This document shows positions 1 to 55,913 of a stretch of DNA of 64,000 nucleotides, piece after piece. Source of the stretch: Sporomusaceae bacterium (GTDB lineage Bacteria; Bacillota; Negativicutes; Acidaminococcales; JAJUGR01). Within the stretch, counting starts at the first letter, position 1; the number at the start of each line of letters is the position of its first letter. The translations under genes and the position numbers were made by a program. The notes beneath the pieces were generated by a model. The model saw only the letters and a program-made list of their open reading frames with translations. It did not search any database and was not told the DNA's origin. The stretch lies in assembly GCA_029265905.1 (NCBI GenBank), contig JAJUGR010000002.1:62001-126000 (forward strand), read 5' to 3'.

Positions 1-1191
1 GCGGAAGTCATATACATGTTCGTCGGCCGCTGACAGGAAGATGTCTTTCGCCCAGCGGTCCAGAACGAATGGCGCGACCTCCAGATAGCGCCGGTTCAAG
101 TCTGTCAATACCGACTCGTAGCGGTCAAAACCGTCGGTTGCCACGGTCACGACATTGTCATGGGGGCCGAGGCGCAGATGCTTGGCCAGCTTGATGGCGC
201 CGATGATGTTGCAGATGCCGGAGGGCCCGATTGCGCTGCCAAGCGTGGCGGCCAAGGCCGGGTCAACGCCCAGGGAAAGCAGCGTGTCGAGGCCGTCGTG
301 GAATACTTTCAGCCCTTGCACGGTTTCCTCGTCCTTGATCAAAATGACAAAGTCGGTGTTGAGGACGTTGTGGATCAAGGTGCACATTTTGTCGCCGATG
401 CCTTCAATGCGGTGCTGGCCACGGCCGCCGTTGGCCAACGTGGAGCATTCGTACGGCTCCAGCGCGGCAATTTTAGCTTCGGGAAAAGCGGCTTTGATCT
501 GGTCGCCGGCCGCGAGCGTGCCGGCTGACCCAGGGGCGGAAACGAAGCCGGCGATGCGGCCGTTGCCGATGCCACGCACGGCTTCAATGGCGCTTCCGCC
601 GGTTACGTGGCGGTGGAAGCGGTAGTTTGACATCAGCTCAAATTGCGCCAGCGCCTTGTTTTTGGGATCCTTCATCAGGGCGTGGGTGCGCTCAAGCGTC
701 AGGATGACATCCGATTCCGAGCCTGGCGTCAGATCCAGTTCGCCGCCGTAGCGCCTGATGCGCTCATAGCGCTCCTTGCTCATGTTGTCCGGCATGATGA
801 CAACGGCGCGCAAGCCCAGCAGGTTGGAGATGTAGGCGGTGCCGATGCCGAAGTTGCCGGTGGACGGACCAAGGATCGTATGCTCAGGCGTGATTTCTCC
901 GTCAACAAGCCCTTCGATCAGGGTGCTGTAGGCAGGGCCGACTTTGTGTGAGCCGGAAGGGAAGCCGGTGCCAAGCATGACGACGATGTTGGCGTCGATG
1001 CCGGTCAGGGCGCCCGGCAGCACCACGCTGCGCACATGGTTTTTGCCGTCCTTCCAGGTAATGTTGAAGAGGTTGATCGGATCCATTTCATTTTCGGACA
1101 AGGCGGACAGGGCTTGGGCCCGCAGGTCTGCCGGCAGGGTTTCAGGATGCAGCATTTCTGCGTAGGTGGGGCCGAACGGGATTTTGCTCAT
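1..1191 (-). CDS. PLP-dependent fold-type II lyase (cysteine synthase / ammonia-lyase-like), partial
   Basis: The reading frame stays open for 397 codons and runs off the left edge, so the C-terminus is missing. The PLP lysine is probably the one in GSHKVGPAY (about residue 82), followed by a phosphate-binding loop GPSTGNFG and a glycine-rich stretch SAPGSAGTLAAG. These are the marks of tryptophan-synthase-beta-fold enzymes such as cysteine synthase and diaminopropionate ammonia-lyase. It is the last visible gene of the minus-strand operon and its ATG overlaps the stop of the M20 peptidase by 4 bp (ATGA), so the two are translationally coupled. Beta-elimination or deamination of an amino acid released by the upstream hydrolases is the natural guess. 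The exact substrate cannot be read from the sequence. Confidence 0.8.
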   Translation of the reverse strand, partial: MSKIPFGPTYAEMLHPETLPADLRAQALSALSENEMDPINLFNITWKDGKNHVRSVVLPGALTGIDANIVVMLGTGFPSGSHKVGPAYSTLIEGLVDGEITPEHTILGPSTGNFGIGTAYISNLLGLRAVVIMPDNMSKERYERIRRYGGELDLTPGSESDVILTLERTHALMKDPKNKALAQFELMSNYRFHRHVTGGSAIEAVRGIGNGRIAGFVSAPGSAGTLAAGDQIKAAFPEAKIAALEPYECSTLANGGRGQHRIEGIGDKMCTLIHNVLNTDFVILIKDEETVQGLKVFHDGLDTLLSLGVDPALAATLGSAIGPSGICNIIGAIKLAKHLRLGPHDNVVTVATDGFDRYESVLTDLNRRYLEVAPFVLDRWAKDIFLSAADEHVYDFR

Positions 1192-2417
1192 GAGGCGACC
1201 TCCTTTGAATTAATGCCGGATACGCCGCAAGCGATGGCCTGATAGCCGATCGCCGCCGCTATTACTTGCGCTATTTCGATGTGCTCGTCAACCACATGGG
1301 CGCCGTCTTCACGCCCGGGGCCGAAGCCGATGGTGGGGATGCCGGCCAGTCCGGCCGAGCAGCTGCCATTGGTGCAAAAGCTGTAGTGCGACAACGGGGG
1401 ATTCAATCCGGCTTTGCGCAAGGCCACTAGGGCCTGGACCACAAGCGGCGCGTGCTCTGGGAGCACCCAGGCCGGGAATAAACGCTCGCCGGACAGCGTG
1501 ATGCCGGTGTAGCAGGGCTGCTCGGCGGATACGATGGCGGCTTCGGCTTGAAAATGGGGGTCTGTTGAAGCCATTTCGCCGAGCAGCCGCTGGATGGGCG
1601 CCAGCACGTCGGCGGCCGTTTCTCCCGGCAGCAGCCGCCGGTCGAAAGTGGCGCGGCAGCGATGCGGCACGACGGAGGCGCCGGGGTAGGGGGCTGAAAT
1701 AATGTCCGTCAATTCGAGGATGCCTGCTCCCAAAAAATCGTCGTGGGGCGCGGGGAGCGCCTGCAATGCGGCGATCAGCCGGCTCATGGCGTATACGGCA
1801 TTGATGCCGACGCTCGGGTTGGAGGAATGGGCCGCCTTGCCGTAGGTGGTGACCGCCACTTCCGCCCGTCCGCGCTGCCCGCGCTTGAGGCTCAAGGCGG
1901 AGGCTTCGCCGATGACAACGGCGTCCGGCTGCAGGGCGTCGACTACCTTGCCCAGGCCAAGTCCTTCAAACGTTTCCTCGCAGACTGTGCCGGAAACGAA
2001 AATTGTTCCGGAAAGTTGGTCTTTGTGGCGTGCCAGCGGCGCAAGGCCGTGGATCATCGCCGCCAGGGCGCATTTCATATCGCTGGCCCCGCGCCCGTAA
2101 AGGCAGCCGTTTCTGATTTCGCCGCCAAACGGGTCGGTAGTCCATTTTTCCAGATCGCTGACCTCTACGGTGTCCAGATGGCCATCGAACAAAAGACGGG
2201 GACCGGGCAGGCCGCCCTTGATTTCACCGATCACATTGCCGGCTTCGTCTATCCAGGCGCGGTCGAAGCCGAGCGCCGCCATTTGCGCGCGAAACAGTTC
2301 CGCAACCGCTCCTTCGTTGCCGGTATAGCTTTTGGTTTGCAGGGCGTGCTGGCAAAAGGCGATGAGGCTCGCTTCATCGACCGCGGCAACCGGTGCGCTA
2401 AGCCGTTCGGTTTGCAT
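1188..2417 (-). CDS. M20-family metallopeptidase/deacylase (YgeY-like)
   Basis: 409 residues with the M20 layout. The metal-binding FDGHLDTV lies near residue 77, GRGASDMK follows, the general-base GTVCEETFEG has the paired glutamates, and a late GAHVVDEH supplies the last histidine. M20 enzymes hydrolyse N-acyl amino acids or small peptides with two zinc ions in the cytoplasm. The sequence most resembles the YgeY/ArgE-DapE branch, which in other bacteria is found with PLP ammonia-lyases of the kind encoded immediately downstream here. A good GGAGGTG site precedes the ATG, and the 3' end overlaps the next gene by 4 bp. Family is sure; substrate is not. Confidence 0.85.
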   Translation of the reverse strand: MQTERLSAPVAAVDEASLIAFCQHALQTKSYTGNEGAVAELFRAQMAALGFDRAWIDEAGNVIGEIKGGLPGPRLLFDGHLDTVEVSDLEKWTTDPFGGEIRNGCLYGRGASDMKCALAAMIHGLAPLARHKDQLSGTIFVSGTVCEETFEGLGLGKVVDALQPDAVVIGEASALSLKRGQRGRAEVAVTTYGKAAHSSNPSVGINAVYAMSRLIAALQALPAPHDDFLGAGILELTDIISAPYPGASVVPHRCRATFDRRLLPGETAADVLAPIQRLLGEMASTDPHFQAEAAIVSAEQPCYTGITLSGERLFPAWVLPEHAPLVVQALVALRKAGLNPPLSHYSFCTNGSCSAGLAGIPTIGFGPGREDGAHVVDEHIEIAQVIAAAIGYQAIACGVSGINSKEVAS

Positions 2418-2447: not shown

Positions 2448-2984
2448 CTAAAAAGCCGGCGGGGTAATTGCCGACCAAAAAACAAGCGGTTTTTCGCCGG
2501 TGTTCCAAATCTTGTGGGGCAGGCCTGACAGATAGTAAATGCTGTCGCCTTCCTCCAAATCGTAGCTGTCGGCGCCGATCTGGATGTGCATCCGCCCCTC
2601 GACGACTAGCAGGTTTTCCTCTCCCGCATGGGTCATGGGCTCGTCGCAGGAGACGCCGCCGGGCTCGATGCGGCCGATTACCATCTCGAGCGTCCGGCTT
2701 AAGTCGGGCGACAGCAGTTCAAAGACAACCTGGCCATGATCGGGGTTCAGCACCTTTCTTTCCGCCTTGCGGACGACAGGATTGCTTTTTGCGTCGTCCA
2801 GCAAAAAATGAAAGACGGGCACGTCAAGGGTTGTGGCTAGCTTGCGCAGTGAGGTGATGGAGGGATCGGCGAGATCGCGCTCGATTTGGCTCAAAAAGCC
2901 GGGGGTCAGGCCGGAGCGCTCCGCCAATTCGCGGATGGTCAAGCCGCGTTCCAGGCGTTTTGACCGTATTTTACTGCCTAACAT
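2448..2984 (-). CDS. XRE-family regulator with C-terminal cupin
   Basis: 178 residues. Residues about 4-58 form an XRE helix-turn-helix (LTIRELAERSGLTPGFLSQ) and the C-terminal half is a cupin barrel (VVEGRMHIQIGADSYDL, then a proline-containing SGLPHKIWNTGE turn). HTH-cupin proteins of this type (PuuR/SutR-like) sense a small metabolite in the cupin and repress or activate amine and amino acid catabolic genes. The start chosen is the ATG 7 nt after GGAGGTG; an in-frame TTG just before it is also possible. It sits inside the operon, between the deacylase and peptidase genes, so it probably regulates this operon and itself. Confidence 0.88.
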   Translation of the reverse strand: MLGSKIRSKRLERGLTIRELAERSGLTPGFLSQIERDLADPSITSLRKLATTLDVPVFHFLLDDAKSNPVVRKAERKVLNPDHGQVVFELLSPDLSRTLEMVIGRIEPGGVSCDEPMTHAGEENLLVVEGRMHIQIGADSYDLEEGDSIYYLSGLPHKIWNTGEKPLVFWSAITPPAF

Positions 2985-2999
2985 CAATCCACCTCCGGT

Positions 3000-4607
3000 T
3001 CAGCGTGTGCGAGCCTGCTTGCGCAGTACCCGGCCGGCATGCATGCCCGTGTGCTTGCCGCCGGCAAGGACTGGCACGCCGTTTACCCAGACTCGTTCAA
3101 AGCCGTCCGGGTGGCGGCAAGGGTCGGTAAATGTGCTGGTTTCGCGCAACTGCGGCAAGTTGAGCAGGACCAGATCGGCAAAGGCACCGGGGCGGATGAC
3201 GCCGCGCCGGTCTAGGCCGAGCCGGGCCGCCGGGCGGCCTGTCATCCGGTGTATGGCCGCTTCCAGCGACAGGAGGCGGTTTTCTTTCACCGCCCATTCC
3301 AAAATGCGGGCGGTCGAGCCGTAGGCGCGCGGATGGGGCTGACCGATCAACAGGCCGTCCGTGCCCAGCATGCCGGCCGGATGCTGCAGGATCGCGGCCA
3401 CGTCTTCTTCGCAGAGGCTGAAGTTGACCATGGAGACGGACAATTGCTCATCGCACAGCAGGTCGAAGACGGCTTCCTGCGGCGTGCAGGACCGCTCGGC
3501 GGCGATGGCGGACAGCGTTTTCCCTTCGCTGCGGCGGTTGCGTTCGGAATTGATGCCTGTGACAAGAATGCGATCCCAGCCGGCGGCCGTGCCGATATTC
3601 TCCCAGCCCGGCAGACCGTCGGCCATTTCGGCCGACAGCCGCCTGCGCCACGCGGGGTCGCGCAGGCGGGACAGCAAGGCTTCGGCGCCGCCTGCATGGG
3701 CGTGGGGCGGGACAAGAATGCTGAGCATGGTGCTGCCGGCCGGATAAGGGTACTGGTCAAAGCCGGCCCGAAGCCCGCGGCGGTTCGCTTCGTCGAATAG
3801 GTTCAGGAGATCCCGGGCAGTGCCCCAGTTCTCCTTGCCGATCACTTTTAGATGCGAAATGTGCGGTATGACGCCGGTTTCTTGCGCCAACGCAAAAATC
3901 TCTTGAATCGACTCCTTCACGCTGCCGCGTTCATTGCGCACGTGGGCGACGAACAGGCCGCCGCTATGCGCCGTAACTTGGGCCAGTGCGGTCAACTCCG
4001 GCTTGTCGGCGGCTACGCACGGCGGATAGATGAGGCCGGTAGAGAGTCCGAACGCGCCGGCTTGCAGCGCTTCCGCCAGACAATTGCACATGGCCGTGAG
4101 CTCGGACGCCGTCAGGGACCTGTCTGCCATGCCGGATACGGCCAGGCGCAACGGTCCGTGGCTGGCCAATGCGGCAAGGTTGACGGAAACGCCGCTTTTT
4201 TCCAAGGCGGACAAATAGTCGTTGAAGGAACGCCAGCGCCAAAACTCAGGCGGAAAATCGCCTTGCAGGCCGGCGATGTGGCGGCTGTAGTCGGCCTGCA
4301 GCGCGTCGGTGATTGGCGCTGCCCCCAGGCCGTCCTGGCCTAACAGTTCGGTGGTGATGCCCTGCCCGATGCGCGAGGCGCTGTTTGGCAAGGCCATGCA
4401 CATGAGGTCTGAGTGGCTGTGCATGTCGATAAAGCCGGGCGTCAGCGTCAAGCCGTCGGCTTCGATGACCTGCGCGTAGGAATCGCCGGACGGCGCGTGT
4501 CTGCCGACAGACTCAATGTATTCTTCAGATAAGACGACATCGGCTTGGAAGCTTGGCACGCCCGTTCCGTCGATGATGCGGGCATTGCGGATCAGTGTTT
4601 TAGACAT
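3000..4607 (-). CDS. N-acyl-D-amino-acid deacylase (D-aminoacylase), amidohydrolase family
   Basis: 535 residues. The N-terminal beta-sandwich and TIM barrel of the D-aminoacylase/AmdHyd family are evident: IIDGTG, then GFIDMHSHSDL carrying the HxHxD metal site near residue 70, PHISHLKVIG, and the late aspartate in GTDGLLIGQPHPRAYGS. The enzyme removes the acyl group from N-acyl-D-amino acids in the cytoplasm. A longer frame reaches 4733, but the ATG at 4607 overlaps the stop of the preceding threonine-synthase-like gene by 8 bp and matches the family N-terminus (MSKTLIRNARIIDG), so it was preferred. In this operon it would supply free D-amino acid from an imported acylated substrate. Confidence 0.9.
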   Translation of the reverse strand: MSKTLIRNARIIDGTGVPSFQADVVLSEEYIESVGRHAPSGDSYAQVIEADGLTLTPGFIDMHSHSDLMCMALPNSASRIGQGITTELLGQDGLGAAPITDALQADYSRHIAGLQGDFPPEFWRWRSFNDYLSALEKSGVSVNLAALASHGPLRLAVSGMADRSLTASELTAMCNCLAEALQAGAFGLSTGLIYPPCVAADKPELTALAQVTAHSGGLFVAHVRNERGSVKESIQEIFALAQETGVIPHISHLKVIGKENWGTARDLLNLFDEANRRGLRAGFDQYPYPAGSTMLSILVPPHAHAGGAEALLSRLRDPAWRRRLSAEMADGLPGWENIGTAAGWDRILVTGINSERNRRSEGKTLSAIAAERSCTPQEAVFDLLCDEQLSVSMVNFSLCEEDVAAILQHPAGMLGTDGLLIGQPHPRAYGSTARILEWAVKENRLLSLEAAIHRMTGRPAARLGLDRRGVIRPGAFADLVLLNLPQLRETSTFTDPCRHPDGFERVWVNGVPVLAGGKHTGMHAGRVLRKQARTR

Positions 4608-5859
4608 CTGTCTTCGCCCCCTCGCGGTGTGAGACGGCGGACAGGCGGGGCGGGATGCGGGTCGGTTCGCCGGCTGCCAAAATGGCGCTTTTCGTATCCT
4701 TGAGCCCGTTGCCGGTTGACAAGACGGCGGCAATGGCGTCTTGTCCGATGATGCCGCTGGCGACGGCGGCGCGTACGCCGGCTATGCAGGCAGCGCCGGC
4801 CGGCTCGGAGAATACGGCGGCTGTGCGCGCCGTATAGCACAAGGCGTCAAGAATGGCCTGATCCGTGACGGCGATGAAGGCGCCTCCTGATTGCCGGACG
4901 GCGCGCAGGGCTTTTTGGAAATTCCGCGGATAGCCGACGGCAATCGAATCAGCAAGCGTATCAGCGCTTGCCGGGGTCAGCTTGCCATCCGTTGCAAATG
5001 CTCGGCAGAACGGCTGGCAGCCATCTGCCTGGACGCCAAGCAGTTTAGGCAATTTAGGCAAAAAACCTAGTATATGCATTTCGACAAGACCCTTCCAAAC
5101 GCCGGCAATGGTGCAGCCGTCGCCGACGGATACGGCGATCCAGTCGGGGAAGCGTCCGTCGTATTGTTCGATGATTTGTTCGACAAGTTCTAGGGAGACG
5201 GTTTTTTTTCCTTCTATCAAATAGGGGTTGACGGCACAATTGCGATTGTACCAGCCGAAGGCGGCGCTGGCTTTTTGGCAGAGTTCCCAGGCTTCGTCAT
5301 AGCTGCCCTCGACGCTGAAGACCTGAGCGCCGTAGACCAGCAACTGGGCGACCTTGGCCTCCGGAGCCCGTTCGGGAACGAAGATGGTGGCGGGGAGGGC
5401 GGCAGCCGCTGCGAAGCCGGCTAGCGAAGAAGCGGCGTTGCCGGTTGACGCGCAAGCAATGCGCGTAGCGCCGGCTTCTTTGGCCTTGACTACGCCTACG
5501 GCGCTGGCCCGGTCTTTGAAGGAGGCGGTAGGATTGCGGCCCTCGTCCTTTATATACAGCGATTTGACGCCCAACGCGCCGGCCAGGCTGGCGCTGTTGT
5601 ACAGCGGCGTCCAGCCTACGGAAAGCGGCGGCAGGAGCGCCGGCTGTTCAATGGGCAGGAGCGGGAGATAGCGCCACATGGAGCGGAGGCCGGACGCCCT
5701 TGCTTCGTGCGGCGGCATCACGCGGGCAACGGCGTCATAATCATATTGTACGTCGAGTACGCCGTCTTCAATGCCGCAGGACGGGCAGGTAAACAAGGGC
5801 GTGTCAGCCGGAAAGGTTTGCCCGCAGGTGATGCAGGCAAGCTGTTTTACATAGCTCAT
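4600..5859 (-). CDS. Threonine synthase-like PLP enzyme
   Basis: 419 residues. An N-terminal zinc-ribbon (CITCGQTF ... CPSCGIED) is followed by the PLP fold; the Schiff-base lysine is in NPTASFKDRA near residue 115 and the phosphate loop is STGNAAS. This is the architecture of ThrC and its catabolic relatives. A biosynthetic threonine synthase would normally sit with hom or thrB. Here it lies between an amino acid importer and a D-aminoacylase, so a degradative beta- or gamma-elimination on the imported substrate is more likely. Only 16 bp separate it from the ABC ATPase gene, and it overlaps the deacylase gene by 8 bp. Family confident, reaction inferred. Confidence 0.82.
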   Translation of the reverse strand: MSYVKQLACITCGQTFPADTPLFTCPSCGIEDGVLDVQYDYDAVARVMPPHEARASGLRSMWRYLPLLPIEQPALLPPLSVGWTPLYNSASLAGALGVKSLYIKDEGRNPTASFKDRASAVGVVKAKEAGATRIACASTGNAASSLAGFAAAAALPATIFVPERAPEAKVAQLLVYGAQVFSVEGSYDEAWELCQKASAAFGWYNRNCAVNPYLIEGKKTVSLELVEQIIEQYDGRFPDWIAVSVGDGCTIAGVWKGLVEMHILGFLPKLPKLLGVQADGCQPFCRAFATDGKLTPASADTLADSIAVGYPRNFQKALRAVRQSGGAFIAVTDQAILDALCYTARTAAVFSEPAGAACIAGVRAAVASGIIGQDAIAAVLSTGNGLKDTKSAILAAGEPTRIPPRLSAVSHREGAKTDV

Positions 5860-5875: not shown

Positions 5876-6607
5876 TTAGTGGTGGATCCGCTTTAAAAAC
5901 GCTTTTGTCCGCTCGTGCCGGGGGCGCTCAAACACTTCCACCGGCGAGCCTTGCTCAACGATCATGCCCTGATCCATAAAAATGACGCGATCAGCCACTT
6001 CTCGGGCGAAACTCATTTCATGAGTCACGACGACCATGGTCATGCCGTCTTCTGCCAATTCCTTCATTGTCAGCAGCACCTCGCCGACCAGCTCGGGATC
6101 AAGCGCGGATGTCGGTTCGTCGAACAGCATGATTTTCGGGTTCATAGCCAGCGCGCGGGCTATGGCTACCCGTTGCTGCTGCCCGCCTGACAGCTCTCGG
6201 GGGTAATTGGCGGTTTTGTCCGACAGGCCGACCTTGGCCAGCAGGCGCAATGCTTCTTGCTCAGCGGTGGCGCGGCTGATTCCTTTCACGACCATCGGCG
6301 CTTCTGTGACGTTTTCCAGCGCGGTTTTGTGCGGGAACAGGTTGAACCGCTGAAAAACCATGCCGATTTGCATGCGCAACGCGCAAAGATCGGTTTGCCT
6401 GGTGACCGGTTCGCCGGCAAAATGGATGCAGCCGCTTTGAATCGGTTCCAACTGGTTGATGCAGCGCAGCACCGTGCTTTTTCCGGAGCCGCTGGGGCCG
6501 ATAATGACGACCCGTTCCCCTTCTTGCAATTGAAGGTTGAAGTCTTTCAGCACCTCGACGGCGCCGAAGGTTTTTCGGACCTTTTTCATTTCCACAAGGC
6601 TGTTCAT
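5876..6607 (-). CDS. Polar amino acid ABC transporter, ATP-binding protein
   Basis: 243 residues, full-length for GlnQ/ArtP-type ATPases. Walker [11 protein letters not shown]-loop [10 protein letters not shown], signature [16 protein letters not shown], Walker [15 protein letters not shown] and the switch histidine in VVTHEMSFA are all intact. It powers the permease encoded directly upstream, whose stop overlaps its ATG by 4 bp. The partner binding protein is the next gene upstream, so this is a complete importer. Confidence 0.95.
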
Positions 6608-7257
6608 CGGCGCGCCAACCCCTTTTCAAGTTTATCGGCTGCGATCATAAAGATGGAGTTCATGATCAGGTACAGAACGGCTACGACGGTATAGACTTCA
6701 AAACTGCGGAAGGTGGTGTAAATGATCTGTTCGCCGGTTCGGAACAGCTCGGTGATCGTGACGAGCGAAGCGATGGAAGAGTTTTTCAAGGTCATAATAT
6801 ATTGGTTGACCAGCGGGGGGATGCAGATTTTGGCTGCCTGGGGGCCGATAATGCGCGTCATGGATTGGCGGTAATTCATGCCAAGCGACATGGAGGCCTC
6901 CAACTGCCCCTTGTCGACGGCCTGGATGCCGGCTCGGATGATTTCCGTAATGTAGGCGCCGGTGTTGACGGCAAGGCCAAAGACGCCGGCTGTCATGCTG
7001 GACAGCTTGATTCCGAGCTGGGGCAGGCCGAAGTAGAGGATGAAGAGCTGGACCATAACCGGCGTGCCGCGAATGATCCAGACATACAGGAAGGCGAGGC
7101 GATTAAGCACTGGGTTGGCCGAGAGCCGGCACAGCGCGCCCGCTGTGCCGAACACCATGCCTAGCAGCAAAGAGAAAAAGGAGATTTCCAATGTAACCCA
7201 GCAGCCTTCAAGCAGCAGCGGCAGCTTGTTTACAACGATCGAATAGTCCAGGTTCAT
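6604..7257 (-). CDS. Polar amino acid ABC transporter, permease
   Basis: 217 residues with several hydrophobic spans and the inner-membrane-component EAA-type loop of the HisMQ family ([19 protein letters not shown], then [14 protein letters not shown]). Opening segment [16 protein letters not shown] and the [10 protein letters not shown] motif are standard for this family. It forms the channel, probably as a homodimer, since only one permease gene is present. It is coupled to the ATPase gene by a 4-bp overlap. Confidence 0.94.
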
Positions 7258-7284: not shown

Positions 7285-8106
7285 TTATTTTTTGTCGGGC
7301 GAGATCCATTTTTTGTAGAGCTTGTCGGCTTCGCCGTTTTGCTTCATGTCCTTCAGCACGCTGTTGACCAGGTCAACAAGTTCCTTGTCGCCTTTTTTCA
7401 CGGCTATGCCAAGCGAGGCTTTGGTGAAAGGCGTTCCGACGATTTTCACCTTGTCGCTGGTTTTATTGTATTCAAGTTGGTTGAGCAGGTCGTTGATGGC
7501 GGCGTCGAGGCGGCCGTTTTCAAGGTCAAGCAAGTAATCGACGGTTTCCTTGTAGCTCTTGATGGTAATGTTGGCGCCTTTTTCCTTCAGCTCTTGCGCG
7601 ACTTTTTCACTGGTGGCGCCGGTTTTGACGCCCACTGTCTTGCCGTTGAGCTTGTCGGGACCGGTAATATCGCTGTTTTCCTTGCGCACTACGAGCACCA
7701 TGCCGGTATCCATGTAGGGATCGGCGAAGTCAACCACTTCTTTGCGCTGGTCGGTGATGTACATGGCGGCGATGACCAAATCGGCCTGGCCATTTTGCAG
7801 GGAGGGTATCAGGCTGGTGAATTGCATTTCTTTTACTTCCAGGGGTACGCCGATTTTTTTGGCTACCGCTTCGGCTACATCGATATCATAGCCGACAATC
7901 TTGTTGGTTTTCTCGTCGTGGTACTCGAAGGGGCGATAGTTGCCGGTTGCAAGCACTAGCTTGCCGGCTTTTTTGATTTCGTCGATGCGGCTGGCTTTGG
8001 CGGCCGGCTTGTCTTTCGAAGCGGCGCTCTGGCCGCAGCCGGCGGCCAGGGAAGCAAGAAATACCAGCAGCAGGGAAAGAACGGAAAAACGTTTCAACCA
8101 GTTCAT
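7285..8106 (-). CDS. Polar amino acid ABC transporter, substrate-binding lipoprotein
   Basis: 273 residues. The N-terminus is a lipoprotein signal (hydrophobic core then LAAGC lipobox), so the protein is anchored outside the membrane. The mature part is an SBP family 3 domain: KLVLATGNYRPFEY, VGYDIDVAEAVAKK, and the lobe-2 segment LNGKTVGVKTGATSE. The start was set at the second ATG because AGAGGG lies 7 nt before it, while the first ATG (8112) is too close to that site. It is the first gene of the long minus-strand operon, downstream of a structured leader. The ligand is probably an acidic, polar or modified amino acid. Confidence 0.93.
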   Translation of the reverse strand: MNWLKRFSVLSLLLVFLASLAAGCGQSAASKDKPAAKASRIDEIKKAGKLVLATGNYRPFEYHDEKTNKIVGYDIDVAEAVAKKIGVPLEVKEMQFTSLIPSLQNGQADLVIAAMYITDQRKEVVDFADPYMDTGMVLVVRKENSDITGPDKLNGKTVGVKTGATSEKVAQELKEKGANITIKSYKETVDYLLDLENGRLDAAINDLLNQLEYNKTSDKVKIVGTPFTKASLGIAVKKGDKELVDLVNSVLKDMKQNGEADKLYKKWISPDKK

Positions 8107-8156
8107 GAACATACCCTCTTTCTTCTTTTTTTATGATCAGGCGGTTGGCCGAATCA

Positions 8157-8262
8157 CCAAAAAAATAGCCCGCGCCCTGAGAAAAACAGGGAGCAGGCTG
8201 CGTTGCCAGATAAACAGAAAATGCCTCGGATGTTTCATCCGAGGCATCTTTGCCAACGATTT
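8157..8262 (-). promoter_or_regulatory. Structured leader with intrinsic terminator (candidate riboswitch or attenuator)
   Basis: Reading the minus strand there are three elements. First is a short stem CCAA/TTGG with a CGA-AAA-TCG core (8254-8271 region). Second is a perfect 12-bp hairpin ATGCCTCGGATG/CATCCGAGGCAT (8221-8247). Third is a terminator, a GC-rich stem AGCCTGC-CCCTG pairing with CAGGG-GCGGGCT followed by seven U (8158-8200). CGTTG in the first stem can instead pair with CAACG at 8201-8205 beside the terminator, which gives two mutually exclusive folds. No known riboswitch consensus was recognised. Confidence 0.55.
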
Positions 8263-8264
8263 TC

Positions 8265-8303
8265 GATTGGTTGAAGTATATCAGAACTTTGTTCCTGAGG
8301 CAA
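8265..8303 (-). promoter_or_regulatory. Sigma-70 type promoter of the amino acid operon
   Basis: On the minus strand TTGCCT and TATACT are separated by exactly 17 bp. Transcription would start near 8265-8260 and give a leader of about 155 nt before the binding-protein gene. Confidence 0.6.
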
Positions 8304-8466
8304 GTCTTTTGTTTGGCGGCACTAAAAAAAGTTGTTCACAGTAAAACAACGGCCGGCCGCCGCGCGGTCGCGTTCGGCGTGCGGGTCGCGTGCGGCGGCA
8401 GGAATTTGTCATGTTGGCCGCGAATGTGGCCTTGGATACGGGTTATTGATGGGAAGGGATTTGTGT

Positions 8467-10374
8467 ATGAATCGGATTGTCATGGTGTCCCCTTATCGCG
8501 ATTTGGGCCAGCAGGCGCTGCGCGTGGCGCACGAGCTGGGGATCATTATTGAAGTGTACGACGGCAATCTTGAGGAGGCCTGCGGCATTGTCGAGCGGCT
8601 GAGCGGGCCCAAACCGGATGTGTTGGTCAGCCGGGCCGGGACGGCGGCCTGTTTGTCGGCGGCGTTTGACCTGCCGGTGGTGACGATGGATACGAGCCCG
8701 TTTGATTTGCTGGAGTGCTGCAACGAGGCGCGCGCCGTCGCGCCCAATATTGCAGTGACCGCGTTTGGCCGCGCGCCGCTGGGAATGGCGCTTTTGGAAC
8801 GGACGATGGGGATCTCCATTACGCCGGTGGTGTTTCATTCGCTGCCGGATTTGCAGGGAAAGATTGACGAGTTGGCTAAAAACGGCCTGTTTTGCGTGGT
8901 GGGAGGAGGCCCGTCCGTCACTTTTGCGCGGGAGGCGGGGCTGCCGGGCGTGCTCTTGCGTACGGGGTTGGAGACTATCCGGGAGGCGTTGTTGCGCGCC
9001 AATGAGATCGCCCAACTGCGGCAGGCGGAGATGCGCAAAGCCTATCGTCTCCAGACCATTTTGGACTCCATCTATGACGGCGTGATTGCCGTCGACGAAT
9101 ATGGCAAGTTGGAGATTTTCAACCGCGCGGCGTCGAACATTTTATCAATCCCGATGGACAATGTCCTGGGCCGGCCGGCGACCGAGGTCGTGGCCAACTC
9201 GCGGCTTGACGAGGTGCTGAAAAGCGGCGTGCGTGAAATTGGCGAGGTGCAGCAGGTTGGCGCCGCCAGCATTGTGACGAACCGCGTGCCGGTGCTGGCT
9301 GAAGAAGAAGTCATTGGGGCGGTGGCGACTTTCCAGGATGTAACGAAAATTGTCCAAACCGAGGCGCGGCTGAGGAAAACGCTGGCCGGCCGGGAGTTTC
9401 GGGCAAAATTCACTTTGGACGACATCGTCGGGCAGACGCCGGTGATTTGCGAAACGCGCAGCTTGGCCAGGAGCTTCGCCCGCTCGGATTTGACGGTGCT
9501 TTTGTACGGCGCTTCGGGGACGGGCAAGGAGCTATTCGCGCAAGGCATCCATCGGGCCGGCCGGCGCAAGCACAAGCCGTTTGTGGCCGTCAATTGCGGA
9601 GCGCTGCCGCCTAACCTCCTGGAAAGCGAGCTGTTCGGTTATGAGGAGGGGGCGTTTACCGGGGCCAAGCGAAAGGGCAAGCATGGCCTGTTTGAATTGG
9701 CGCACGAGGGGACGATATTTTTAGACGAAGTCGATTCTTTGCCGCTGGAGCTGCAGGCGCGTCTGTTGCGGGTTCTGCAGGAGCGGGAAGTGCTGCGCAT
9801 TGGCAGTGAGAGCCTGATCCCGGTCGATATACGCGTGATTGCGGCGACCAACACGGAGCCGATGGAGCTGTTGGCGCAAAAGCGGATGCGTTCCGACCTG
9901 TTTTACCGCTTAAATGTGCTGTACCTGGGATTGCCCCCGTTGCGTGAGCGGCGCGATGACATTCCGCTCTTATGCAAGCATTTTCAGCGCGGCGGCGCGG
10001 AGGTGAGCCGCCTGCTGGAGGGGATGATGCCCTTTTTCATGCGCTACTCGTGGCCGGGAAATGTGCGCGAGCTGTTCAATATGATGGAGCGACTGTCGCT
10101 CTACCAGGGAGAAAACTGCCTTGCGCCCGGCGTTGGCGCGCAAGGGGTGCTGCGCAAGCTGGCACCGCAACTATTGGCCGAACTTGATGCGCGTCCGGCT
10201 GCGGAGGCTGATGATTCGTTGACGGTGCAACTGGCTGACCGGGAGGCGCAGGTCATTTTGCAGGCCGTCAGGCAGGCTGGCAGTGTGGGTGCGGCGGCGG
10301 CGCAGCTGGGTGTCGGGCGGTCGACGCTGTGGCGAAAATTGAAGAAAATGGGTGTGTCTTCACAATGCGAATGA
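8467..10374 (+). CDS. PrpR-like sigma-54-dependent transcriptional activator
   Basis: 635 residues. Residues 1-190 resemble the PrpR_N sensory domain, a PAS domain follows (about 195-310, ILDSIYDGVIAVDEYGK), then the AAA+ domain with GASGTGKELF Walker A, the sigma-54-contacting GAFTGAKRKG loop and Walker B GTIFLDEVDS, and finally a Fis-type helix-turn-helix (VGAAAAQLGVGRSTLWRK). The start at 8467 follows GGGAAGGG at a good distance; the longer open frame from 8332 encodes an Arg/Ala-rich stretch with no domain. It is divergent from the amino acid operon and lies directly upstream of a consensus sigma-54 promoter, so its likely target is the CoA-transferase operon. Confidence 0.9.
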   Translation: MNRIVMVSPYRDLGQQALRVAHELGIIIEVYDGNLEEACGIVERLSGPKPDVLVSRAGTAACLSAAFDLPVVTMDTSPFDLLECCNEARAVAPNIAVTAFGRAPLGMALLERTMGISITPVVFHSLPDLQGKIDELAKNGLFCVVGGGPSVTFAREAGLPGVLLRTGLETIREALLRANEIAQLRQAEMRKAYRLQTILDSIYDGVIAVDEYGKLEIFNRAASNILSIPMDNVLGRPATEVVANSRLDEVLKSGVREIGEVQQVGAASIVTNRVPVLAEEEVIGAVATFQDVTKIVQTEARLRKTLAGREFRAKFTLDDIVGQTPVICETRSLARSFARSDLTVLLYGASGTGKELFAQGIHRAGRRKHKPFVAVNCGALPPNLLESELFGYEEGAFTGAKRKGKHGLFELAHEGTIFLDEVDSLPLELQARLLRVLQEREVLRIGSESLIPVDIRVIAATNTEPMELLAQKRMRSDLFYRLNVLYLGLPPLRERRDDIPLLCKHFQRGGAEVSRLLEGMMPFFMRYSWPGNVRELFNMMERLSLYQGENCLAPGVGAQGVLRKLAPQLLAELDARPAAEADDSLTVQLADREAQVILQAVRQAGSVGAAAAQLGVGRSTLWRKLKKMGVSSQCE

Positions 10375-10436: not shown

Positions 10437-10461
10437 GCCGCTAGGATGGGCGTTTTCAAGT

Positions 10462-10477
10462 TGGCATGGTTTTTGCA
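10462..10477 (+). promoter_or_regulatory. Sigma-54 promoter (-24/-12)
   Basis: TGGCAT-N5-TTGCA, with GG and GC exactly 10 bp apart, matches the RpoN consensus closely. Transcription would start near 10488, some 33 bp before the CoA-transferase ATG, which has a GGAGGA site. Confidence 0.88.
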
Positions 10478-10520
10478 TTATACTTGAGCGACAAATAAAC
10501 AACTCAAGGAGGAAAGACAC

Positions 10521-11717
10521 ATGCAAAGACTAGGTGCACTTGAAGGGATTACCGTTTTGGACTTGACCCGCGTATTGGCGGGTCCGTTTGCCAGCATGAT
10601 GATGGCTGATATGGGCGCCAACGTCATTAAGATTGAGGAAGCGGGAAAAGGCGCGGACGAGCGGCAGATGGGGCCATTCCAAAACGGCGAAAGCGCTTAT
10701 TACATGAATCTCAACCGCAATAAAAAAGGGATGACCTTGAACTTGAAGTCCCCCAAGGGCAAAGAGATATTCAAGGAACTAGTCAAGAAAGCCGACGTAG
10801 TGCTGGAAAATTATCGCCCCGGCACAATGGATAAGCTAGGGTTGGGCTATAACGTGCTGAAAGAAGTCAATCCCGGCATCGTTTATGCTGCGGTTTCCGG
10901 CTTCGGCCAATACGGCCCGTACACGAAGCGCCCCGGCTACGACATCATCAGCCAGGCGATGAGCGGCCTGATGAGCACGACCGGCTGGCCGGGCGGCGCG
11001 CCCACGCGCAGCGGCACGGCGATGGGCGACGTTTTGGGTGGCTTGTCGGTTACAATCGGCATTTTGTCGGCGATTTACAACCGCTCTCATACGGGACTTG
11101 GGCAGATGGTCGATGTGGCGCTGGTTGACTCGGCTGTTGCCAGTCTGGAAATTATCAACATGATTTACCTAGTGGAGGGAAGATTGCCGCAGCGCATCGG
11201 CAACCGCTACGAGTCCGTTTATCCCTATGATTCCTTCCAGGCCAAAGACAATCTGGTTATTGTCGCCGGCGGCAATGACAAGCTGTGGGGGCTGATCTCC
11301 AAGCACATCGGCCGGCCGGAACTGGCGGATCATCCTGATTTTGCCCGGACGCGCGATCGGGTCAAAAACCACGTTGCCGTCCGGGAGATAGTCGAAGCTT
11401 GGACGCAAACCAAAACGTCCAAGGAGGTCGTAGATGAGTTGCTGGCCATTGGCGTGCCGGCGGCGCCGATTTACAACATTGAAGATGTTGTTGAGGATCC
11501 GCATATTGCCGGCGCGCGGGAGATGTTCGTCGACATCGAGCATCCGAAAGCCGGCCCGATCAAGATTACTGGCTCGCACATCAAGCTTTCCGACACGAAA
11601 TCCAGCATCCGCACCCCGTCGCCTGGTTTGGGCGAGCACAATGAAGAGGTGCTTACTTCGATGCTGGGCCTCAAAGCGGACGAAATTGCGGCGCTGAAGC
11701 AAGAGGGGGTGTTGTGA
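10521..11717 (+). CDS. Class III (CaiB/BaiF/FRC) CoA-transferase
   Basis: 398 residues, the full length of the family. N-terminal LEGITVLDLTRVLAGP, then NLNRNKKGMTLNLKS, KKADVVLENYRPGTMDKLG and SGTAMGDVLGG are diagnostic; the aspartate in AMGDVLGG aligns with the catalytic Asp of formyl-CoA transferase. These enzymes move CoA between carboxylic acids without ATP. As first gene of the sigma-54 operon, ahead of a lyase of the HMG-CoA lyase family and a dicarboxylate-type transporter, it probably activates the imported acid to its CoA ester, using succinyl-CoA or acetyl-CoA as donor. The acid itself is not identifiable from sequence alone. Confidence 0.93.
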   Translation: MQRLGALEGITVLDLTRVLAGPFASMMMADMGANVIKIEEAGKGADERQMGPFQNGESAYYMNLNRNKKGMTLNLKSPKGKEIFKELVKKADVVLENYRPGTMDKLGLGYNVLKEVNPGIVYAAVSGFGQYGPYTKRPGYDIISQAMSGLMSTTGWPGGAPTRSGTAMGDVLGGLSVTIGILSAIYNRSHTGLGQMVDVALVDSAVASLEIINMIYLVEGRLPQRIGNRYESVYPYDSFQAKDNLVIVAGGNDKLWGLISKHIGRPELADHPDFARTRDRVKNHVAVREIVEAWTQTKTSKEVVDELLAIGVPAAPIYNIEDVVEDPHIAGAREMFVDIEHPKAGPIKITGSHIKLSDTKSSIRTPSPGLGEHNEEVLTSMLGLKADEIAALKQEGVL

Positions 11718-55642: not shown

Positions 55643-55913
55643 TTTGCTTCCCGTAAAAATAAAAAAAGCCGCCCCTTGCGAAGGGACGGGCAAAACCCGC
55701 GGTACCACCCTAGTTGCCGCCAGGCGGCCTCTTTGATGTCATTCAGACATGCCGGTTATCGGTGGCGGCCGGTGCGGCCTACTGTTGTTCAGCCCACTGC
55801 TTGCAGGTGTATTCGGTCAGGCAAATGGCTGGGTCGCAGCTACCCCCAGCTCTCTTGACAGTTGCCTCTGACGTACTCGTCCTGGTCATTGCGTTGCGAT
55901 ATGCTGTTAGAAA
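55643..55913 (-). promoter_or_regulatory. Tyrosine T-box leader
   Basis: On the minus strand the T-box sequence AGGGTGGTACCGCGG occurs at 55697-55711, followed by a terminator (55654-55691: GCC-GTCCCTT/AAGGGGCGGC then seven T). In stem I the specifier region GAATACACC offers TAC, the tyrosine codon, at 55809-55811. Uncharged tRNA(Tyr) would pair with it and open the terminator, raising tyrS expression when tyrosine is short. Confidence 0.95.

Follow-up and report, generated by a model that had tools for sequence, protein, structure and literature searches.

The minus-strand leader of an amino-acid ABC transporter operon, at about 8268-8159 of the window (the whole 64,000-nucleotide stretch of Sporomusaceae DNA analyzed here), is very probably a tandem transcription attenuator controlled by an ANTAR response regulator, as judged from comparative sequence analysis. 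It is composed of two modules in series, in each of which a 3-bp hairpin with a hexaloop has its 3′ arm in common with an intrinsic terminator. On this reading, a leader that had no assignment becomes a defined regulatory element for which regulator, kinase, and gene set can be named; it belongs to a known kind of system, in an arrangement outside the classical dual-hexaloop definition. The original prediction had left two possibilities, a protein-controlled attenuator or a new amino-acid-sensing RNA; the ANTAR-type hexaloop modules support the first well and speak against the second, the conserved part being a 12-nt mini-hairpin that is small for an aptamer and has the features of ANTAR target loops.

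The leader lies between a promoter-like site and the binding-protein gene that heads the operon, and the genes downstream of it, identified by family scans, are presumed to be cotranscribed:

7285..8112, minus strand: substrate-binding protein of an amino-acid ABC transporter (SBP_bac_3), the first gene of the operon
6604..7257, minus strand: ABC transporter permease
5876..6607, minus strand: ABC transporter ATPase
4600..5859, minus strand: PLP enzyme of the threonine synthase group
3000..4733, minus strand: amidohydrolase
2448..2987, minus strand: XRE-cupin regulator
1188..2417, minus strand: YgeY-type M20 hydrolase

By eye, the ATG at 8106 suits the Shine-Dalgarno-like AGAGGG better than the ATG at 8112 as the start of the binding-protein gene. 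The longest frame of the amidohydrolase gene overlaps the preceding gene, and its true start is therefore probably further inside. The name D-aminoacylase had been proposed for its product; the scans agree as far as the amidohydrolase family and say nothing more specific. A PrpR-type sigma-54 activator is encoded divergently at 8332-10374 on the plus strand. Further along, before a frame at 10521, TTGGCATGGTTTTTGCAT at 10461-10478 resembles a sigma-54 -24/-12 promoter.

The elements of the leader were mapped as follows:

8303-8275, minus strand: promoter-like site, with -35 TTGCCT at 8303-8298, a 17-nt spacer, and an extended -10 TATACT at 8280-8275 (TG before the -10)
8254-8243, minus strand: module 1 putative antiterminator mini-hairpin GGC-AAAGAU-GCC, with A1 and G4 in its loop (RNA-model E 2.7e-4, the unit being in the model seed)
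8250-8218, with tail to 8211, minus strand: terminator T1, 15 pairs, -22.6 kcal/mol, tail CTGTTTA; its 5′ arm takes in the GCC of hexaloop 1
8207-8196, minus strand: module 2 putative antiterminator mini-hairpin GGC-AACGCA-GCC, with A1 and G4 in its loop (RNA-model E 0.012, the unit being in the model seed)
8199-8159, minus strand: terminator T2, AGCCUGC-U-CCCUG / CAGGG-C-GCGGGCU, -22.3 kcal/mol, then A and seven U (8165-8159); the GCC of hexaloop 2 is part of its 5′ arm

The good promoter announced by the original prediction is indeed present as a promoter-like site, though the pattern scan, with one found against 0.6 expected, is weak taken alone; in 24/44 leaders, a -10-like box stands 20-32 nt 5′ of the stem of the first hexaloop. 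From the -10 box, transcription is likely to start near 8268. The RNA of 8150-8268 folds to -54.8 kcal/mol, far better than its shuffles (z -7.8; 0/200 as good). The "stem 1" proposed earlier has its first base at the likely start or 5′ of it. Likewise, the clear intrinsic terminator described at the end of the leader exists at 8199-8159, but it is not alone: because the hairpin at 8250-8218, a perfect palindrome of 12 pairs that extends to 15, is also terminator-like and carries a U-rich tail, the leader has two terminators.

The hexaloop hairpins and the terminators are mutually exclusive folds, through the GGC-hexaloop-GCC hairpins that share a terminator arm, which upholds the idea of exclusive folds (terminator versus antiterminator) put forward for this leader. 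The pair originally named for it fared less well: the complementarity between CGTTG (8258-8254) and CAACG (8205-8201) is present and part of the minimum-energy fold, but a pairing of at least 5 bp was found in just 5/19 tandem leaders (window included) against 3.6 expected from shuffles, and a CGTTG/CAACG switch was thus rejected as a conserved element. The 3-bp hexaloop stems are weak (-2.8 kcal/mol each), and enforcing both hexaloops costs the fold 21 kcal/mol, so that the two terminators clearly prevail in the ground state. Control must therefore rely on kinetics and on help from a protein, as has been proposed for EutV. With both hexaloops enforced, the upper part of T1, which lies within the 35 nt between the hexaloops, is still able to form a small hairpin, and this may bring the two loops nearer to each other.

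Under the proposed mechanism, RNA polymerase would start near 8268 and, with the regulator inactive, the RNA would form T1 and then T2, such that transcription would end before the amino-acid ABC and amidohydrolase genes. Phosphorylated by a PdtaS-type kinase (both proteins are encoded on contig C11), an ANTAR dimer would grip the hexaloop of module 1 and hold GGC-AAAGAU-GCC, thereby keeping its GCC out of T1; module 2 would behave alike, GGC-AACGCA-GCC being held against T2, and the operon would be transcribed. Binding of the regulator, the antiterminating direction of its action, and its action at both modules are drawn from analogy with known ANTAR systems, and by the same analogy the signal is presumably a nitrogen or amino-acid cue.

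A profile search of the genome, which is 98.8% complete, gave exactly one ANTAR match, a protein of 193 aa composed of receiver and ANTAR domains and encoded directly after a kinase gene; judged from translations, the pair sits between a tsaD-like gene and groEL. The regulator aligns over nearly its full length with EutV (6wsh/6ww6, E 1.5e-46) and with Rv1626 (1s8n, E 3.9e-58), the closest solved ANTAR regulator. Six of the seven EutV residues that contact the loop are kept (Arg142, Lys143, Lys149, Glu160, Tyr164, and Met172), and Lys147 is replaced by Arg; the numbering was transferred via the alignment, two positions offset in the chain. Tyr164 is the residue that stacks on loop G4. The partner kinase has a HisKA_2 domain and a weak match to GAF_PdtaS (26.9 bits against 23.7). 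The PdtaS-PdtaR (Rv1626) system of Mycobacterium tuberculosis likewise combines a kinase with a GAF_PdtaS domain and a receiver-ANTAR regulator. NasR and AmiR, in turn, whose target leaders have dual hexaloops, work without a partner kinase.

The window leader was compared with those of binding-protein orthologs picked by protein homology. Their recurring pattern is a hairpin of three to five pairs that closes a six-base loop with A1 and G4 and whose 3′ arm is the 5′ arm of a terminator. Lack of stem conservation in relatives had been named in advance as grounds for abandoning the original prediction; the modules are in fact conserved. In a 17-unit alignment drawn from 20 units (the pair of L012 and unit 2 of L047 being left out), 83.8% of the cells of the hexaloop stem are paired and seven show double changes, values each reached by 0/500 shuffles; the terminator stem gave 89.4% and seven (0/500), and the hexaloop stem over 38 units gave 84.2% and 11 (0/500). 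The stems observed include GGC/GCC, AGC/GCU, GAGC/GCUC, AAGC/GCUU, and CUGC/GCAG, with GGAC/GUCC in second modules. This covariation is carried by two of the four pairs, since the two loop-closing pairs are invariant; the outermost pair is open in 24/38 units. The number of covarying pairs over the 38 units is not above that of shuffles (358/500 as high), and a one-column shift of the partner raised the covariation score slightly, from 0.203 to 0.245 but lowered the paired cells from 84% to 59%. Across these units (alignment A3), the first loop base is A in 35/38 and G in 3/38, and the fourth is G in 38/38, a figure that is partly circular because the RNA models were seeded with hand-picked units. 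For the successive alignments, 23 and then 22 of the 30 loci from the R1 search were kept, the loci dropped by eye being L095 (a tRNA terminator), L103, L106, L113, L114, L115, and L119, and later L110 (a near copy of L109); L106, which stands before an amino-acid-type permease, may be genuine.

An automated test found the first unit to overlap an intrinsic terminator in 42/44 leaders. Tandem arrangement also recurs: in 11/44 leaders, against 0.35 expected, the first module is followed by another complete one whose stem has 4 bp or more, the second module of the window standing outside those 11 because its stem has 3 bp. A looser count by eye put a second module in 19/44, with a spacing of 33-42 nt, about the size of T1, in 13 of the 19 and a longer one in the other six.

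The genes behind these modules are mostly of nitrogen metabolism, a usual, not strictly defining, property of ANTAR targets. The genome of the window holds four units in three places, namely, two in the present leader, one before the gene for a DcuC-type carrier, and one before another amino-acid ABC operon; one more match scores no better than chance (E 0.68). Inspection by eye and by script found no module directly upstream of the five other genes in this genome that match the binding protein, but for one of them (contig C23) a module precedes the ATPase gene that heads its operon. Among relatives, units stand before genes for ammonium transporters (amt), diaminopropionate ammonia-lyase, the 5-oxoprolinase subunit PxpA, and peptide and amino-acid binding proteins. 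These targets were identified by eye from translations, with family scans of 10 proteins, three of them ammonium transporters and one without any family, plus 7 more. By eye, other matches precede unlinked genes, for MnmE (L115), a chemotaxis-type protein (L114), and porin-like proteins (L103 and L113), and are taken as chance or of unknown meaning.

Four modules are adjacent to genes for ANTAR systems. Units lie directly before kinase-ANTAR operons in three genomes, G242 (R2 E 0.007), G085 (R1 E 0.14), and G096 (R1 E 0.06), and in a fourth, G374, an RNA model built from the present leaders found a unit before eutA (E 0.017), all four being weakly scoring matches that were picked by comparing coordinates. 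The order at the latter locus (L141, G374:C5:138500-143000) is ANTAR regulator, kinase, leader, and eutA, and the leader has a classical-type upstream hairpin, GCAAC-GAUGUA-GUUGU (G1, G4), in addition to a terminator-linked hexaloop. The kinases of all four genomes carry HisKA_2 and GAF_PdtaS domains over the cut-off. Modules before the kinase gene (L140, L142, and L143 in G242, G085, and G096) suggest transcriptional autoregulation of some ANTAR systems.

The motif and the regulator also occur together. In 380 genomes of the class Negativicutes, the own genome included, a model match at E <=0.02 was counted as the motif, giving 88 genomes with matches, against about 8 expected from rough E-values, and 272 with ANTAR over the cut-off. 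With the own genome excluded, ANTAR is found in 84/87 motif-bearing versus 187/292 motif-less genomes (Fisher 4e-11, a value inflated by relatedness). Of the same order, genus g7 lacks both in 9/9 genomes searched (no ANTAR and no R2 match at E 0.02), consistent with their joint loss or joint absence; three g7 genomes have weaker R1 matches (E 0.04-0.46).

These data bear on the first alternative, that some other RNA-binding protein or factor reads the mini-hairpin. ANTAR was not found in 3/88 motif-bearing genomes, and 187 of the 272 ANTAR-bearing genomes have no motif match, as such an alternative might lead one to expect. Against it, the three are assemblies of about 100-400 contigs (G040, 97% complete; G080, 87%; G303, 72%), the modules immediately 5′ of kinase-ANTAR operons and the one ahead of eutA, next to an ANTAR gene, point to the ANTAR protein itself, and the A1/G4 hexaloop, the stem of at least 3 bp, and the terminator overlap are the published ANTAR criteria. 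Another reader is judged improbable.

A small-molecule riboswitch that senses an amino acid is very improbable. Its appeal lies in the strong structure, the plausible operon, and the fact that, as the original prediction had it, no riboswitch consensus fits: a search of the whole window with Rfam 15 gave no family at gathering score for the leader, and at E up to 5 the leader showed 12 sub-threshold matches (best 20.8 bits against 49 needed), none of them usable. The only gathering-score match in the window is a T-box (RF00230) at 55679-55898 on the minus strand (121 bits), away from the leader, which bears out the earlier statement that the leader is not a T-box. A DNA similarity search of 100 relatives yielded, besides the leader itself and its own palindrome, just short weak pieces (best E 0.003), so the leader must be kept via structure and key bases and not via plain sequence. 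The riboswitch reading is opposed by the small conserved core, just 12 nt together with a terminator that is variable, in both sequence and length, in its upper part, by the differing nitrogen functions before which the modules stand, and by the lack of conservation of the long-range CGTTG/CAACG pair.

Equally hard to sustain is the view that the leader holds two constitutive terminators, serving insulation or promoter-proximal termination without regulation. Both hairpins are stable enough for it, at -22 kcal/mol each, but the conserved, covarying antiterminator hairpins sit exactly on the 5′ arms, far over background: an A1/G4 hexaloop was found on the 5′ arm of 11/20 terminators in 14 leaders, compared to 3/271 other terminator-like hairpins on both strands of the window (Fisher 2e-12; 3e-10 when the two of the window are set aside). 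The test, automated but written after the leaders had been inspected, covered the window and 13 orthologs of the first gene. It omitted L049 and L057, in which the binding-protein gene lies inside an operon and no leader precedes it; L058 was kept and gave no terminator, and L011 and L012 are near copies. The nine misses include G1 loops and terminators drawn too long by the finder. Moreover, modules stand shortly before gene starts in most leaders inspected. Least probable of all is leader-peptide attenuation by ribosomes. A short frame that runs across the leader, MKHPRHFLFIWQRSLL..., speaks for it, but by eye there is neither a clear Shine-Dalgarno sequence nor a run of regulatory codons.

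The ANTAR reading is best placed by comparison with EutVW of Enterococcus faecalis and its eutP, eutG, eutS, and eutA leaders (Ramesh et al. 2012, PMC3369931; Walshe et al. 2022, PMC8934654). As these papers describe it, an ANTAR target loop has A1, G4, a stem of at least 3 bp, and a pairing alternative to a terminator (PMC3369931, PMC8934654); the A1/G4 hexaloop of at least 3 bp, the 3′ arm shared with a terminator, the receiver-ANTAR regulator with its kinase, and the RNA-contact residues are common to that system and the present one. Broad-sense ANTAR attenuators are characterized by such a hexaloop, the terminator overlap, and a genome-encoded ANTAR protein with the contact residues, all of which were found here. 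The arrangement differs. The eut target consists of hexaloops P1 and P2 with a linker of 5-12 nt, P1 being essential, and a longer linker sharply reduces (14 nt) or abolishes (+20 nt) EutV action (PMC3369931, PMC8934654); a linker of 2-25 nt is accepted in actinobacteria. In EutVW, an upstream P1 is followed by P2 and the terminator, whereas here each hexaloop has a terminator of its own, the linker is 35 nt with T1 inside, and a P1 outside the terminator was not found, so that the leader lies beyond the classical definition.

Over 44 leaders, a hidden canonical P1 upstream was looked for and not found: within the 36 nt 5′ of the first unit, an A1/G4 hexaloop on a stem of 3 bp or more occurs in 2/44 against 3.4 expected, and, irrespective of loop sequence, a hexaloop on 4 bp or more in 11/44 against 13.1. 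Among ten settings tried, weak upstream excesses appeared for 5-bp hairpins with a 5-nt loop (10/44 against 5.5 expected; 10/200 shuffle sets as high) and for 4-bp hairpins with a 7-nt loop (18/44 against 12.7; 8/200). Only 9 nt separate the end of the -10 box from the hexaloop stem in the DcuC leader; if that box is the promoter, a hairpin upstream of the stem could not fit into the transcript.

Whether Negativicutes use single-hexaloop ANTAR attenuators, with the hexaloop embedded in one terminator, singly or in series, and without P1, is a proposition that we regard as evenly balanced. The 2022 structure paper takes a single hexaloop as the minimal binding site, states that the dimer needs both loops to prevent termination, and leaves natural single-loop sites open (PMC8934654); in the in vivo eut work, both loops were needed (PMC3369931, PMC8934654). 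If the proposition holds, one dimer on one loop would be enough to beat a terminator, contrary to the two-contact model, and a minimal, stackable form of ANTAR antitermination would govern a nitrogen regulon across much of the Negativicutes. Single-loop leaders, in one of which the loop hairpin follows the likely start site by a few bases, offer a natural test of single-hexaloop sufficiency, and the window leader, with its two modules, lends itself to asking if stacked terminators sharpen the response.

A literature search found no report of ANTAR targets in Negativicutes; the supplementary tables of the 2012 genome survey may list such genomes. A comparable multi-target nitrogen regulon is that of Desulfotomaculum acetoxidans, of a different class, for which that survey describes at least 13 ANTAR attenuators in six units, found with a dual-hairpin model (PMC3369931). 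Compared by description, the two have in common several attenuators per genome, more than one attenuator per unit, and control of ammonium transporters and other nitrogen genes (PMC3369931). The NasR-nasF and AmiR-amiE leaders, as described there, follow the same hexaloop/terminator logic (PMC3369931). In actinobacteria, unlike here, only few predicted ANTAR targets are upstream of a terminator (PMC8164766).

At one further locus of a relative (L144, G040:C79, 438-6782), a tandem module is followed by genes for diaminopropionate ammonia-lyase, a YgeY-type hydrolase, an amidohydrolase-like frame, and an ABC transporter of the same kind as in the window, suggesting a rearranged form of the window operon and a linked catabolism of acylated or unusual amino acids.
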